Origin: Candidatus Poribacteria bacterium
GTDB taxonomy: Bacteria > Poribacteria > WGA-4E > WGA-3G
NCBI GenBank assembly: GCA_003635315.1
Contig: PYJD01000036.1
Location: 1 to 64,000, forward strand
DNA length: 64,000 bases
Direction: 5' to 3'
The position numbers and the translations under genes are program-made. The notes under the pieces are model-generated. The model was given only the letters and a program-made list of their open reading frames with translations, was not told the DNA's origin and did not search any database. How positions within the stretch are numbered: position 1 is the stretch's first letter; the number at the start of each line of letters is the position of its first letter. Positions 33,443 through 42,458 of the stretch are shown here, piece by piece.

Positions 33443-34468
33443 ATGTATCGTGTCGGTATTATAGGATTAGGAAGTATTGCTGCTCGTTATTCAAATCCAG
33501 ATGATGCTTATCCTTACTGTCATGCTGGGGGAATACGTCATTGTCAGACAACTGAATTGGTGGCAGTTGCAGATATGTCTAAAGAACGACAATCCGATTT
33601 TCAGCAAACATGGGGACCCGGTTTTCCTGATGGATCAATCAACTATTATGATTCCGATATTCAAATGCTTGAAAGTGAAGAATTGGATATCGTGGCTGTT
33701 TGTGTTAGAGGACCCCACCATTTTCCTGTAATGCAAAATGTTCTGAAGGCTGATATTAAGGCAATATTCCTCGAGAAACCTGCAGGATGTTCCCTTGAAG
33801 AAGTTGATACAATGACAGCAGGTGCGGATGCTAAAGGAATTCCTATCATTGTTGATTATACAAGGCATTGGGGACCACATCTTATACATCTACAAACTCT
33901 TATTGAAGACGGTTTAATTGGTGAAGTTCAAACTGTAATTGGTTATTGCGGTGGAGGTGTTCTATCCTTCGGTATCCATACTACGGACATGATATGTCAA
34001 TTCGCAGGTTATGATCCTATATCTGTATCTGGAATAGTCACGGGAGAAGGTCATCCCCCTGAACCTTACGAACATGAACCTTCAATTGTCAGTGCTACAA
34101 TAAAATATCAAAGTGGTGTTATCGGTTTTCAGGTTGGACACCATGGTGTACGAGGTAGTTTTTCTGTTGATATTCTCGGCAGTGAAGGTACAATTCAGAC
34201 CGGATTTTATACTGGTGTGTCAGTCCAGAAAGGTGGTCAGCAAGTTGATAATGATACGCTTAATTTACCTGAGAATGCTGGTCCATTCAAAATAGCCTAT
34301 CAGCAGATTACTGACTATCTTGAGGGTGGACCATTACCGCACTGTTCACGGGATCATTATACGGCTGTAAATGAAATTGGTTTTGCTGTAATTGAAAGCG
34401 CCATTACTGGACAGATTATCGAACTACCATGTCAAAATAGGACACGTCTTATCTATGCAAATGGATAA
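33443..34468 (+). CDS. Gfo/Idh/MocA-family oxidoreductase
   Basis: NAD(P)-dependent oxidoreductase, 341 aa. Rossmann loop GIIGLGSIAARYS at the N-terminus; EKP motif as LEKPAGCSLEEVD; C-terminal beta-sheet domain with GIHTTDMICQFAG as the probable catalytic-histidine region. AAGGAG precedes the ATG. It stops 12 bases before the selenoprotein gene and shares its promoter, so the two should be made together. Similarity to the copy at 19815-20888 is limited to the fold motifs. Substrate unknown; sugar or polyol derivatives are usual. Confidence 0.88.
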   Translation: MYRVGIIGLGSIAARYSNPDDAYPYCHAGGIRHCQTTELVAVADMSKERQSDFQQTWGPGFPDGSINYYDSDIQMLESEELDIVAVCVRGPHHFPVMQNVLKADIKAIFLEKPAGCSLEEVDTMTAGADAKGIPIIVDYTRHWGPHLIHLQTLIEDGLIGEVQTVIGYCGGGVLSFGIHTTDMICQFAGYDPISVSGIVTGEGHPPEPYEHEPSIVSATIKYQSGVIGFQVGHHGVRGSFSVDILGSEGTIQTGFYTGVSVQKGGQQVDNDTLNLPENAGPFKIAYQQITDYLEGGPLPHCSRDHYTAVNEIGFAVIESAITGQIIELPCQNRTRLIYANG

Positions 34469-34480
34469 TTTCTGTTTATA

Positions 34481-35224
34481 ATGGCTTCCTTTAATGACCT
34501 CGGTTTCTTAGATCGTCATCTTATACGGTTATACCCATTTAAGAAATATAACACATCACCTAATTCTCCACTCAATAAACCATTAGATCAAACACGAATT
34601 GCACTTATCACTACGGGTGGGTTTTATATGGATGGACAACAACCATTTAATATAAAAAAATTAGGGGGTGATTGTTCTTTCCGTGAAATTGCAAATTCAA
34701 TTAATATACAAGACCTATTAATTCAACATAGTAGTAGTGTTTACGATCCAAGTGATACTAAAACTGATGTCAATCTTGTATTCCCATTGGTTAGATTTCG
34801 AGAATTAGAGGATAAAGGAATTATTAAATCATTAAACCATAGACATTTCAGTTTTATGGGGTCAATCTCCAGACCAAAACAGCTTATCAATCATACAGCA
34901 CCCCAAGTAGCCAAATTATTGATTGATGATAAAGTGGATGTGGCATTTCTAACTCCTGTATGACCCTTATGTAATCAGTCCGTAGGATTGATTCAACGTG
35001 CTATTGAAGATGTTGGTATTACAACAGTATCAATTACACTTGTTGAAAATGTAGCGAAAAGGATAAAACCACCTCGTGTTTTATCTGTCCCGTTTGGTTT
35101 TGGACATCCACTTGGGGAACCTAATAATCCGACCTTACAACATACAGTAATTTCAGAGGCACTGGGACTATTAGAAAATAATGAACCACCACCAATCTTA
35201 AAAAGAAGTCTGATATCAACATAG
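34481..35224 (+). CDS. GrdB/PrdB-like selenoprotein (in-frame TGA = Sec161)
   Basis: Read as one 247-aa protein whose codon 161 (34961-34963) is TGA. The two halves lie in the same frame with no shift, and together they look like the glycine/sarcosine/betaine reductase selenoprotein B family: YPFKKYN, LITTGGFY, FPLVRFRELEDKG, then FLTPV-U-PLC, NQSVGLIQRAIEDVGI and FGFGHPLGEP. Sec161 and Cys164 form the UxxC redox pair. A hairpin with a GU-bearing loop lies just after the TGA. Inside the family this pair makes a reductase or thiol-redox site; the full grd operon is not present. No clear Shine-Dalgarno; translation may be coupled to the upstream gene. A nonsense pseudogene is the alternative. 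Confidence 0.82.
34961..34993 (+). promoter_or_regulatory. Sec codon (TGA) with SECIS-like stem-loop
   Basis: Directly after the TGA, AATCAGTCC (34973-34981) and GGATTGATT (34985-34993) pair over nine positions including one G-U, closed by the loop GTA. Bacterial SECIS elements sit within ~15-40 bases of the Sec codon inside the coding region and carry a GU or GG in the apical loop; this one starts 9 bases after the TGA and its loop is 18 bases after it. Confidence 0.7.
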
Positions 35225-38762: not shown

Positions 38763-39758
38763 CTAAAGGGAATCTATACGTTCTCTGAATGCAGCTATGT
38801 GCTTGGGTGTTGTGCCGCAGCATCCACCAATAAAGAATGCACCAACATCTAATAGTTCAGGTACATATTTTGCCATGTCTTCTGGGGTTTGTGTATATAT
38901 AGTTTTATAGTCTTCATCAAGAATAGGCATTCCGGCATTTGGATATGCCATCATCTTTTTATTCTCGATATTCATACTAACACATGCATCTCTTAGTTGT
39001 ACAGTACCCATAATTGCATAAGGCATGCCAGTATGTTGTTCATGTTTAGATTCAGCACCACAGTTTAACCCTATAATATCAACATAGTCCACAAGTGAGT
39101 CACCATTTGAGAATTCTCCACTTGATAGAATTTCGAGTAGGTTAAGAGCACTATGTCCCCAGTCTGTCTTATATATTTCCATCCCAGTTCGACGTTCTTT
39201 TGTCCATTTATAGGTTAGATTAACGGCAATTGGTAGACCTGTTTCCCTTGCTATATCAACAGCAATTGCAGCTTCTTTAGCAGAGAACATTGTTTCTAAA
39301 CAAAGAAAATCAACACCTTCATCTGCAAGTGTATTGATGATAAGTTTATGCGCTTCTCGAACTTTCTTATTTGCAATACCGAATGTAGTATCTCCGCTAT
39401 CTGCCTCTATTGCACCAGGAGATGGACCAACTGAACCAGAGATATACACCGGTTGATTCATTTTTTCAACTGCAGATTTTGCATGCTGCACGGCAAGTCG
39501 TGTTAAACGTTCAGCATCAACTTCGTTTTGATCTGCCATTTCAAGGTGAAGGGGAGAAACAACAAAAGTATTCGTTCCAATCGCTTCTGCACCAGCAAGA
39601 ATATAATCTGAATGAATTCCAACAACATCATCAGGATGTGATTCATTCGCTATAGCACTATTCGCAAGTTGAATATCACGAGCAAATAACTGTGAACCAA
39701 AGCCTCCATCATATAAAATAGGAATCTCAGAATTTAGACGATCTCTAAAATCTACCAC
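38763..39758 (-). CDS. Homocysteine S-methyltransferase family protein
   Basis: Zinc-dependent methyltransferase barrel like BHMT/MmuM and the N-terminal part of MetH, 331 aa. Zinc ligands C233 (LNCGAE), C313 and C314 (GGCCGTTP) are all present. It stands alone as a catalytic barrel but follows the RACo-type and corrinoid-protein genes on the same strand with 20 bases between, so it probably passes methyl groups to or from that corrinoid protein. Likely methyl donor: betaine or another methylated compound; not determined by sequence. Confidence 0.85.
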   Translation of the reverse strand: MVDFRDRLNSEIPILYDGGFGSQLFARDIQLANSAIANESHPDDVVGIHSDYILAGAEAIGTNTFVVSPLHLEMADQNEVDAERLTRLAVQHAKSAVEKMNQPVYISGSVGPSPGAIEADSGDTTFGIANKKVREAHKLIINTLADEGVDFLCLETMFSAKEAAIAVDIARETGLPIAVNLTYKWTKERRTGMEIYKTDWGHSALNLLEILSSGEFSNGDSLVDYVDIIGLNCGAESKHEQHTGMPYAIMGTVQLRDACVSMNIENKKMMAYPNAGMPILDEDYKTIYTQTPEDMAKYVPELLDVGAFFIGGCCGTTPKHIAAFRERIDSL

Positions 39759-39778
39759 TGTTTTTTGAATCTACTCCA

Positions 39779-41683
39779 CTAACTTATATCTTTAGGCATA
39801 GGTTTAAATTGACAACCCTCAACAAATACTTCAAAAAAGTCAGGTGTTGTCTCCAATTCAATATGCTCAATCTTTCTCACTAATGCTTCTATTTCTTCAC
39901 GTTTTTCCTTAGATAGTAAAACTGATTTTGCCCCTGCTAAGGCGGCATTGCCAATTTTCTCTATACGTTCATCAGGAACTGGTGCCAGAAATCCAATATC
40001 TATTGCATCACAAGAATTTACGTAATTGGCAAATCCACCTGCTAAATACAGTCTACTGATCTCTTTTGGGGATACACCGATATGTCTTAGTACTATATAT
40101 TGACCACAATAATTTGCTGCTTTTGCTTGTGCTAAATTACTTGCATCCTCGCGTGAGAAAGTTATACCATAGTCAGGTAAGATAGATAATTTCCTCTGTT
40201 TTCTATCGGCAAAGACCCCCTTTGGATTCATCTGATTTGTACGTAAAAGTTCAGCAAGCAATGAAATTAAGCCTGATCCACAAAATCCTTCCGGTTTTAC
40301 ATCCTCTACAGTTTTAAAATCAATCTCACCATTCCTCCATTTTACAAATTCGATTGCTCCAGGATAGGCAGGCATTCCATATTCAATTCCACCACCCTCA
40401 AATGCAGGACCAGCAGGACACGATGCTGCAATCATTCGATCTTTGTTCCCAACAATTACTTCCGTATTTGTTCCGACATCTACTAACATGACTATTTCAT
40501 CTTGATTTTGCATATCAATTGAAATTAGATCTGCCGCAACATCAGCTCCAACGTGACTGGCTATTAATGGTAAACTATAAACCATTGCCTTCGGATTGGA
40601 TCTTATTCCAAGTCGTCGAGATTTTTCAATTAGTGAAGTCTTGATACGCAACCCATCGTTAAACTCATGCTCAATAATTGATTTGTACGGTTTTTGACCA
40701 ATACTCTGAACATCATATCTAAAGAAGATCTCCCTCATAGTAGTGTTACCGACAACGACTATTTCATAAATCTCCTGACGCACGATATCCAATCTGTCAC
40801 ACATGTCCATAATGTCACTGTTTAATGCAGCCAATAATGATTTTCTCAATTCTCCTTCAAACTCTGCATCGTATGAGATACGGTGCATAATGTCACTACC
40901 ACCAAAACGTTGTGGGTTTTCAAATGAACTCACGTATATAGTCTCACCATTTTCTAAATCAATTAGATTTGTTACGACAGTTGTTGTACCAATATCTATA
41001 GCGAGACCATATATATGTCCACGAAATTTATCGATTGGTTCATCATTATAATACACTACACCTTCATGATGTGTAACCAATGGATTAATTGGATATAATG
41101 TTTCTTGGTCAATTGAATTTTGAGTAAGTATTCGGGGAGAACGACGAAGGGGTGCAAATTCTATATCCTGATCAACTTCAAGAACAACAGATTGACATGC
41201 TAAGCGATAGTTATCACGAAGGAAGGCTTCCGCTTCGTTTGGGGGTCGTAAACTATCCATTCCACTTTTAATTTCAACAATACATTCATGGCATTGTCCT
41301 GTACGGAAGCAGGAGGTAGGAACTTGAATAGCCAAATCATCAGCATAATCGAAGACCGTTTTACCTTGTGTTAGTTGATATACCTTACCGTCACAGGAAA
41401 TAGTAGCGTTATTTTTTTCGATTAAATTGTCTAAAGTGGTAGAGTCTTCTGTTTCCCATGCAGTACGATAATCCAATTTATCGTCACCAACACATTTTAA
41501 ACCTGTACCTTCATTAATCTTGCGTTGATTTTGACATCCAAATTTAGCAGTACATTGGTCATCCCTGTTTTTGTATGGACAGCGATAAGTAGCTTGTTCA
41601 TCGGCATGAGTTACAAGTTCTTCAAAGATCTTTGTAATTTTGTTGAGTCGTTTTTCATACTCTGTTTTATCAACTTTTTTCAT
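39779..41683 (-). CDS. RACo-type corrinoid reductive activase (2Fe-2S, ASKHA)
   Basis: 634 aa. An N-terminal Cys cluster (C35, C44, C50, C64) of unknown metal content precedes a plant-type [2Fe-2S] domain, C125-x5-C131-x2-C134 and C163; then the long ASKHA ATPase part with the actin-like loops LAIDIGTTTVVTNL and VVVGNTTMREI, and a C-terminal DUF4445-like region. Such proteins use ATP to reduce inactive Co(II) corrinoid back to Co(I). It lies between the corrinoid protein (16 bases upstream) and the homocysteine methyltransferase, which makes that role very likely. Confidence 0.87.
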   Translation of the reverse strand: MKKVDKTEYEKRLNKITKIFEELVTHADEQATYRCPYKNRDDQCTAKFGCQNQRKINEGTGLKCVGDDKLDYRTAWETEDSTTLDNLIEKNNATISCDGKVYQLTQGKTVFDYADDLAIQVPTSCFRTGQCHECIVEIKSGMDSLRPPNEAEAFLRDNYRLACQSVVLEVDQDIEFAPLRRSPRILTQNSIDQETLYPINPLVTHHEGVVYYNDEPIDKFRGHIYGLAIDIGTTTVVTNLIDLENGETIYVSSFENPQRFGGSDIMHRISYDAEFEGELRKSLLAALNSDIMDMCDRLDIVRQEIYEIVVVGNTTMREIFFRYDVQSIGQKPYKSIIEHEFNDGLRIKTSLIEKSRRLGIRSNPKAMVYSLPLIASHVGADVAADLISIDMQNQDEIVMLVDVGTNTEVIVGNKDRMIAASCPAGPAFEGGGIEYGMPAYPGAIEFVKWRNGEIDFKTVEDVKPEGFCGSGLISLLAELLRTNQMNPKGVFADRKQRKLSILPDYGITFSREDASNLAQAKAANYCGQYIVLRHIGVSPKEISRLYLAGGFANYVNSCDAIDIGFLAPVPDERIEKIGNAALAGAKSVLLSKEKREEIEALVRKIEHIELETTPDFFEVFVEGCQFKPMPKDIS

Positions 41684-41699
41684 ATATTAGAATAGGAAA

Positions 41700-42458
41700 T
41701 TACCAATCATCATCTGTTTCTTGAAGGAATTCTTTTGCTAATGTAACACATTCTAAAGCATCTTTACCATATCCATCAGCACCCATATCGTCTGCGAATG
41801 TTTGTGTTACTGGTGCACCACCAACCATAATCTTCACATCTTCACGTAAATCCTCATCAATAAAGGCATCTATAGTCTTACCCATGTTTGGCATGGTTGT
41901 AGTTAGTAATGCAGACATGCCTAATATAGGTGCTTCAAATTCCTCAACAGCATCCATGAATTCCTCTTCAGAGGTATCCACTCCCAAATCGTGTACCACA
42001 AATCCGGCTCCTCTAAGCATCATAATACACAGGTTTTTACCAATATCGTGCAAATCACCTTTCACGGTACCCATAATTACAGTACCTATAGGATCTATCC
42101 CTGAATCTGATAGAATCGGTTCTATGTGGGACATTCCAGCCTTCATAGCACGTGCACATGCAAGAACTTCAGGTACAAATATGAAGTTCTCTCTAAACTT
42201 AATTCCAACGATACCCATCCCTAATATAAGACCATCATCCATTATCTCAAGTGCTTCAACTCCTTCGTTAAGTGCTTGCTCAGTTAATTCATCAACGGTA
42301 TGATGATCACCATCTATCAATGCAGCTGCAATATCCTGCATTTTGGATGAAGCTTCTAAGAACATATCCACGAATCTGGTTTTTTCTTCTGGACGTTCAA
42401 GATATTCTTCAATTTCTTCTCGAATGAATTCATTCGAGATATCACTTATTGATCCCAC
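41700..42458 (-). CDS. Corrinoid (B12-binding) methyl-carrier protein
   Basis: 252 aa, MtaC/MtbC-like. A helical cap (about 25-115) precedes the Rossmann-like B12 domain with the DxHxxG motif D135-L-H137-D-I-G140; H137 is the lower-axial cobalt ligand. Further binding segments are GMSALLTTTMPNM and VGGAPVTQTFAD. GTG start (42456-42458), 13 bases after AAGGAGG. It is the first gene of the methyl-transfer cluster and holds the methyl group between a substrate-specific methyltransferase and homocysteine. A promoter candidate lies just upstream. Confidence 0.92.
   Translation of the reverse strand: MGSISDISNEFIREEIEEYLERPEEKTRFVDMFLEASSKMQDIAAALIDGDHHTVDELTEQALNEGVEALEIMDDGLILGMGIVGIKFRENFIFVPEVLACARAMKAGMSHIEPILSDSGIDPIGTVIMGTVKGDLHDIGKNLCIMMLRGAGFVVHDLGVDTSEEEFMDAVEEFEAPILGMSALLTTTMPNMGKTIDAFIDEDLREDVKIMVGGAPVTQTFADDMGADGYGKDALECVTLAKEFLQETDDDW

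Follow-up and report, generated by a model that had tools for sequence, protein, structure and literature searches.

Two open reading frames that share one frame and are separated by a single TGA raise the question whether this Poribacterial locus encodes two short proteins or one selenoprotein and, in the latter case, which reaction such a protein might carry out. We analysed the 64,000-nucleotide stretch of DNA in which they lie (the window), together with the rest of its genome and with related genomes. A previous inspection of the letters, the sequence-only reading, had proposed a single gene that is broken only by the TGA and that a standard gene caller would split. The reading-frame check agrees with this: between the ATG at 34481 and the TAG at 35222–35224 the frame is open except for one in-frame TGA, and a plain ORF listing indeed returns two ORFs. 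When the TGA is read as selenocysteine the product is a protein of 247 residues with U161 in the context LTPV-U-PLCNQSVGLIQRAIEDVGI, and the translation reproduces the proposed motif LTPV-U-PLC followed by NQSVGLIQRAIEDVGI. The coordinates of the features are collected in Table 1.

Table 1. Features of the selenoprotein locus; positions refer to the window.
Feature	Position	Strand	Evidence
Gfo/Idh/MocA-family dehydrogenase gene (gfoA); encodes 341 aa and ends 12 nt ahead of the selenoprotein start	33443..34468	+	Pfam GFO_IDH_MocA
Predicted selenoprotein gene of the PrdB/GrdB superfamily, TGA read as selenocysteine, 247 aa	34481..35224	+	Frame, family profiles, relatives, one-domain model
In-frame TGA, predicted selenocysteine 161; UxxC motif with Cys164	34961..34963	+	TGA in 80/80 named loci; 61/61 clade rows Sec
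Putative SECIS hairpin: 9-bp stem 34973–34981 / 34985–34993 with one G-U pair; loop GTA 34982–34984	34973..34993	+	Folding, codon choice, covariation, published constraints

The TGA is conserved among the relatives of the gene. In named public genomes 509 places were found, and in the best 80 of these the aligned codon is TGA without exception; 49 of the 80 loci are Poribacterial and 31 come from Acidobacteriota, Chloroflexota, Actinomycetota, Latescibacterota, Nitrospirota, Bacillota and others. More distant forms are under-counted by this choice of the best 80. A search of 97 genomes, the window's own included, gave matches in 68, and 67 of the matches span residue 161, of which 66 contain a TGA and one, from the distant genome G091, has Cys; the position of the TGA at the site itself was confirmed for 30 + 7 of these loci. 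Within the family group of the window (f1) the gene is present in 55 of 57 genomes, and the two without a match consist of 720 and 750 contigs. The protein is conserved on both sides of the codon, with an identity to the window of 70% 3′ of the TGA and of 63% in the 80 codons 5′ of it (49 ungapped Poribacterial comparisons). An AlphaFold2 model built with 42 sequences (mean pLDDT 95.2, pTM 0.93) predicts a single alpha/beta domain that runs across the TGA, in which a strand (154–158) leads to Sec161 and into a helix (162–177) and the part after the TGA adds strands and helices. Searches of the PDB gave no clear match. Two relatives show peculiarities of their own: locus L045 (4969–5616) has a second in-frame TGA 5′ of the Sec codon at a position that is Arg in most aligned relatives, likely a point mutation or a sequence error, and L134 seems to carry another homologue of the selenoprotein gene ∼2 kb further downstream.

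Nine bases past the TGA the sequence-only reading had placed a 9-bp hairpin with one G-U pair and a GTA loop, in the spot and form expected for a bacterial SECIS. All of these details were recovered, and the distance from the TGA to the loop is 18 nt. According to the parts of the source that were available, the bacterial SECIS model has a loop of 3–9 nt with an early G, a stem of 4–16 bp, a distance of 16–37 nt from the UGA and an MFE of at most −7.5 (PMC13188914), and the hairpin lies within all four limits (GTA, 9 bp, 18 nt, −11.2 kcal/mol). On energy alone it is mildly unusual, with a z of −1.89 and an energy equalled by 10 of 200 shuffles. Energy by itself is thus not decisive, and the hairpin appears to be more than chance because it is conserved. 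Since the stem falls within a nearly invariant peptide, codon choice was compared by redrawing synonymous codons from the same genes (500 redraws, 81 sequences, that is, the window and 80 others). The stem is paired at 7.77 of 8 positions versus 5.21 (sd 0.13) in the resamplings, and 80 of the 81 sequences have at least seven pairs, where the redraws give 10 on average and 21 at most. The Leu codon of the stem is NTG in 81/81 sequences, including all 50 Poribacterial hairpins; elsewhere in the same Poribacterial genes NTG makes up 23% of the Leu codons. The pair that joins codon position three of Gln (or Arg) to codon position one of Leu is G-C, G-U or A-U in 81/81 sequences and never A-C, and at four distant loci where Ile is replaced by Val the opposing base is C instead of U.

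A covariation test was carried out with 39 of the 81 sequences and 500 shuffles, and these sequences are related and not independent. In it 95.5% of the cells are paired, the covariation score is 0.203 versus 0.152 in the shuffles, and 10 cells are changed on both sides versus 3.0; none of the 500 shuffles reaches any of the three values. Two other measures are not unusual in the same 39 sequences: 2 pairs are changed on both sides, a count that 286 of 500 shuffles reach, and 6 pair types occur, which 486 of 500 reach. When the stem was slid by −1 as a control, 12 double changes were counted, more than the 10 of the real stem, yet only 49.7% of the cells were paired. The codon resampling is the stronger test of selection on the hairpin. 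Judged by sequence, the hairpin is a SECIS of the bacterial type.

Reading of the TGA as selenocysteine also requires the respective machinery, and the absence of selB or selC from the genome had been named as the observation that would speak against the proposal. All four sel genes are present: selA (518 bits), selB (368.5 bits, contig C41), the tRNA-Sec with anticodon TCA (76.5 bits), which adjoins selB on the same contig and strand, and selD (365.5 bits, C37:19883–20809, locus L143). The selD gene has an in-frame TGA of its own near 1531 of L143 (KCAGUASK, translated by eye) and is for this reason probably a selenoprotein gene too. Among the 97 genomes searched, 80 have selB above the cut-off. 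For sponge symbionts an enrichment of SelA and SelB is described in the sections available of one study (PMC5649159).

To which family does the protein belong? The sequence-only reading had matched the selenocysteine site to the GrdB/PrdB family. This holds at the level of the superfamily, as Pfam GRDB (PF07355) is matched with 32.9 bits (gathering cut-off 22) over residues 19–158, but it does not hold for PrdB or GrdB in the strict sense. The best NCBIfam match is TIGR04483 (PrdB) with 151.3 bits and an E-value of 2.8e-44, below the equivalog cut-off of 300, and the glycine reductase selenoprotein B models TIGR01917 and TIGR01918 score 45.9 and 46.1 bits and fail their cut-offs of 602 and 65; two relatives (L119 and L133) exceed the latter with 72.5 and 76.3 bits. 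As a reference for true PrdB we used eight regions in other genomes that also have a PF09338-type (PrdA-like) frame. The three of these eight that were scanned with TIGR04483 score 331.4, 425.5 and 431.7 bits, the scores of five relatives of the window's protein range from 142 to 174 bits, and the Cys form of G091 has 76. In the trees the eight PrdBs group among themselves, apart from the window's protein, whose clade has 61 rows (SH-aLRT 99, quick tree with arbitrary root), all of them Sec forms, under the labels Poribacteria, Latescibacterota, Acidobacteriota, Chloroflexota and Actinomycetota. The tree comprised 23 of the 50 Poribacterial sequences, 27 of the other 31 named loci, four sequences from further genomes, 58 of 62 loci from a sample of the phylum Acidobacteriota and the eight PrdBs; L161–L164 were omitted as repeats of named-locus genomes, whereby L117 was left out. 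Three of the four clade rows labelled Chloroflexota or Actinomycetota (L112, L115, L125) come from contigs 3 to 5 kb long, so that binning errors are possible.

The Acidobacteriota-phylum sample comprises 247 genomes, and 71 of these contain a match to the gene. The rows that were read are the top 30, which all have TGA, and 32 of the 33 without a stop, the 33rd missing the site. At the Sec site these 32 stop-free homologues (L191–L222) have Cys in 11, Ser in 16 and Asp or Glu in 5 cases. The Ser forms retain the second Cys and form one clade, and the Asp/Glu forms have Ser instead of the second Cys. A sense codon unrelated to Cys or Sec in close relatives had been named as a further observation that would count against selenocysteine; the close relatives that were read have TGA, and the Cys, Ser and Asp/Glu forms all fall outside the 61-row clade, so they do not speak against the selenocysteine reading. 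These forms show that the wider family swapped its active-site residue more than once. Because of these forms outside the clade and of the 110 Cys homologues of the GOS collection (see below), the Sec-only state of the 61-row clade may reflect sampling. Sixteen positions are invariant in both the 61-row clade and the eight true PrdBs, among them R68, H83, D96, N98, U161, C164, E176 and R199. From these shared positions, which include the Sec and the second Cys, we think that the chemistry of the clade is related to that of true PrdB.

PrdB and glycine-type GrdB act together with a pyruvoyl-forming subunit that activates the amine substrate. A domain of this kind (PF09338, GrdE/PrdA type) was found in none of 59 genomes of the window's class (its own among them; 46 of the 59 match the gene) and in none of 31 genomes from elsewhere that have the gene; the same search was positive for 50 of 149 genomes from a different phylum. 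The search for GrdA (PF04723) was likewise negative in 25 genomes that have the gene, again including the window's own, and positive in all seven controls. The claim that the gene occurs without any other grd or prd gene is thus borne out for PF09338 and GrdA, the two families searched in the window's own genome (an assembly that is ∼90% complete). The selenoprotein could possibly have a partner that is unrelated to PF09338.

The pairing with a Gfo/Idh/MocA oxidoreductase, which the sequence-only reading had regarded as unusual, was confirmed and is recurrent in Poribacteria. An orthologue of the upstream gene gfoA (>60% identical, same strand, at most 5 kb away) is present at 42 of 50 Poribacterial loci, in 38 cases no more than about 150 nt from the selenoprotein gene. 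In the sequence available it is missing at the eight loci L062, L067, L079, L086, L094, L100, L102 and L103. At L061, L064 and L076 ∼3 kb separate the Gfo gene from the selenoprotein gene; in L061 and L064 this stretch is a long ORF, and the one of L064 resembles by eye a restriction-modification protein. At 44 of the 50 loci another Gfo gene, which shares ∼27% identity with the first, follows downstream at a distance of up to 5 kb. The window lacks this downstream gene, and an orthologue of 88% is found on contig C23 of the same genome (L159, 5191–6252), where it adjoins a phosphofructokinase-like gene (by eye) that follows the downstream Gfo gene in some other loci. As both genes are together on C23, a rearrangement has probably split the locus in this genome. 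Four loci lack both Gfo genes (L094, L100, L102 and L103); three of them form a sister clade in the tree and the fourth was not placed. Outside Poribacteria neither Gfo gene was found at any of 31 loci (E 1e-10; several contigs are short). The linkage is suggestive of a functional relation between the two genes, but the genome has 79 Gfo-like matches and for this reason the linkage may also not be functional. In L114 the next gene, an ORF located 577 to 2041 nt past the TGA, resembles by eye the MttB-type trimethylamine methyltransferase family, and positions 38763–42458 of the window (minus strand) hold a corrinoid methyl-transfer set with a homocysteine S-methyltransferase, a RACo-type protein with a 2Fe-2S domain and a B12-binding protein.

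With these results the explanations for the locus can be weighed. If the TGA were a true stop, or else a sequencing or assembly error or a product of decay, two short proteins or a pseudogene would be left, just as the standard ORF listing with its two ORFs has it. Such an origin is barely conceivable for a TGA that recurs at one site in all of the 80 named loci (best 80 of 509), with a protein conserved on either side, a codon choice that preserves the hairpin, a complete Sec machinery in the genome and a predicted domain that continues across the codon. We are therefore practically certain, as far as comparison and prediction go, that the gene encodes a selenoprotein, and from the computed Sec codon, hairpin, machinery and fold we infer that selenium is incorporated. 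Automatic naming would make this selenoprotein a D-proline reductase PrdB or a glycine-type GrdB, and TIGR04483 as the best NCBIfam match together with the Pfam GRDB score above cut-off would speak for it. We rejected PrdB because of the 151 bits against a cut-off of 300 (331–432 bits in the three scanned true PrdBs), the clade separate from the eight PrdBs and the PrdA-type partner that was not found; in addition, the PrdB loop FMGGGG and the motif LTAG-U-GTCHR are absent. Glycine-type GrdB was rejected on the TIGR01917 and TIGR01918 scores and because neither a GrdE-type gene nor GrdA was found. Either identity is, in our view, very unlikely.

More serious is the proposal that the selenoprotein is a general thiol-based redox enzyme that acts on disulfides, peroxides or oxidised small molecules and that the neighbouring dehydrogenase is incidental. 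UxxC is just as well a generic redox motif, no common gene context was seen outside Poribacteria, and a study of the Sargasso Sea, in the parts available, places PrdB among the thiol-dependent redox selenoproteins (PMC1088965). On the other hand, the sixteen invariant positions that the clade has in common with PrdB, an amino-acid reductase, go beyond U and C, and the 50 matches listed per structure search contain no thioredoxin-fold entry, a missing match that proves nothing. Furthermore, none of the 61 clade rows has Cys, whereas most of the Sargasso Sea selenoproteins, according to that study, occur sporadically beside widespread Cys homologues (PMC1088965). A general thiol enzyme is thus a possibility to be taken seriously, albeit one that we would not expect to prove right. 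Our own explanation as a whole, in which the selenoprotein is a partnerless reductase of the PrdB/GrdB superfamily that depends on its selenol and acts on a carbonyl-activated metabolite, has in our judgement an even chance of being correct.

As a partnerless reductase the protein would work in the following way. SelB and the Sec-tRNA would decode the UGA at 34961 as selenocysteine, helped by the hairpin 9 nt downstream, and the product would fold into a single alpha/beta domain in which Sec161 lies where a strand passes into a helix, with Cys164 three residues later. The selenolate of Sec161 would attack an electrophilic carbon of a small metabolite, next to its carbonyl or carboxyl group, and thereby expel a leaving group; Cys164 would resolve the selenium adduct under formation of an Se-S bond, which a cellular thiol system would then reduce. 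Because no pyruvoyl-type subunit was found, the substrate should bring its own activating group and would arrive already bearing it. In Poribacteria the Gfo/Idh/MocA dehydrogenase could make the carbonyl group of the substrate or could process the product. Clade separation, gene linkage and the search for partners were computed, and we infer which reaction takes place, on what substrate, and what the dehydrogenase does. A further generalization is that the whole Sec-only clade, filed as 'proline reductase' and found under five phylum labels, carries out a new selenium-dependent reductive cleavage without a pyruvoyl partner and that the Poribacterial substrate is made a keto compound by the linked dehydrogenase; this we put forward only tentatively and regard as rather doubtful.

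Comparison with known systems shows what would be special about the protein. With PrdB (TIGR04483) it shares 31–39% identity over the aligned part, the Sec in UxxC at the aligned site and the sixteen invariant positions. It differs in having PLC-NQ in place of GTC-HR after the Sec and FMGS in place of FMGG, besides the score below the equivalog cut-off, the separate clade and the PrdA-type gene that was not found. It aligns to the C-terminal half of GrdB (PF07355) including the Sec site, but with 247 residues it is much shorter than the models of 431–435, and neither a GrdE-type gene nor GrdA was found in the genome. Of interest for the proposed chemistry is FarB of Cloacibacillus porcorum MFA1, a GrdB homologue for which, in the available parts of the report, cleavage of the C-F bond of monofluoroacetate by attack of the Sec is proposed; its partner FarE is GrdE-like, yet is no pro-protein and forms no pyruvoyl group (PMC10838667). 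Like the window's protein, FarB contains Sec and belongs to the superfamily; its substrate is no amino acid, and it offers a precedent for superfamily chemistry without pyruvoyl. In contrast to FarB, which is encoded together with FarE, no GrdE-like gene was found for the window's protein.

UxxC selenoproteins named PrdB are as such already known, with catalogues of ocean metagenomes listing them from 2005 on. The available parts of the respective papers give 42 'proline reductase PrdB' genes with UxxC from the Sargasso Sea (PMC1088965), 235 'PrdB' Sec genes (pfam07355) besides 110 Cys homologues from GOS (PMC2398784) and a share of 6.4% for 'proline reductase' in a sea-water selenoprotein count (PMC9402790). 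Like the window's protein they belong to the PrdB/GrdB superfamily and have the Sec in UxxC and a bacterial SECIS, so that both possibly belong to the same wider group; in contrast to our reading they are named proline reductase, and neither a partner gene nor a Gfo linkage is discussed in those parts of the papers (PMC1088965, PMC2398784). The open-access literature searched, a set outside which most subscription journals lie, holds no earlier description of the Poribacterial gene. In the literature examined, available in part, we did not meet partnerless members, a Sec-only clade apart from PrdB or the linkage to a dehydrogenase in Poribacteria.

The gene is a clear example of how a plain ORF listing cuts a likely enzyme in two. 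Moreover, the selenoprotein families counted in larger numbers in sea water include 'PrdB', whose name implies the reduction of proline. If the sea-water genes fall into the partnerless group, this reading would be wrong and a common selenium-dependent reaction would be left without assignment. The linkage to the dehydrogenase in Poribacteria and the invariant residues offer handles for finding this reaction.
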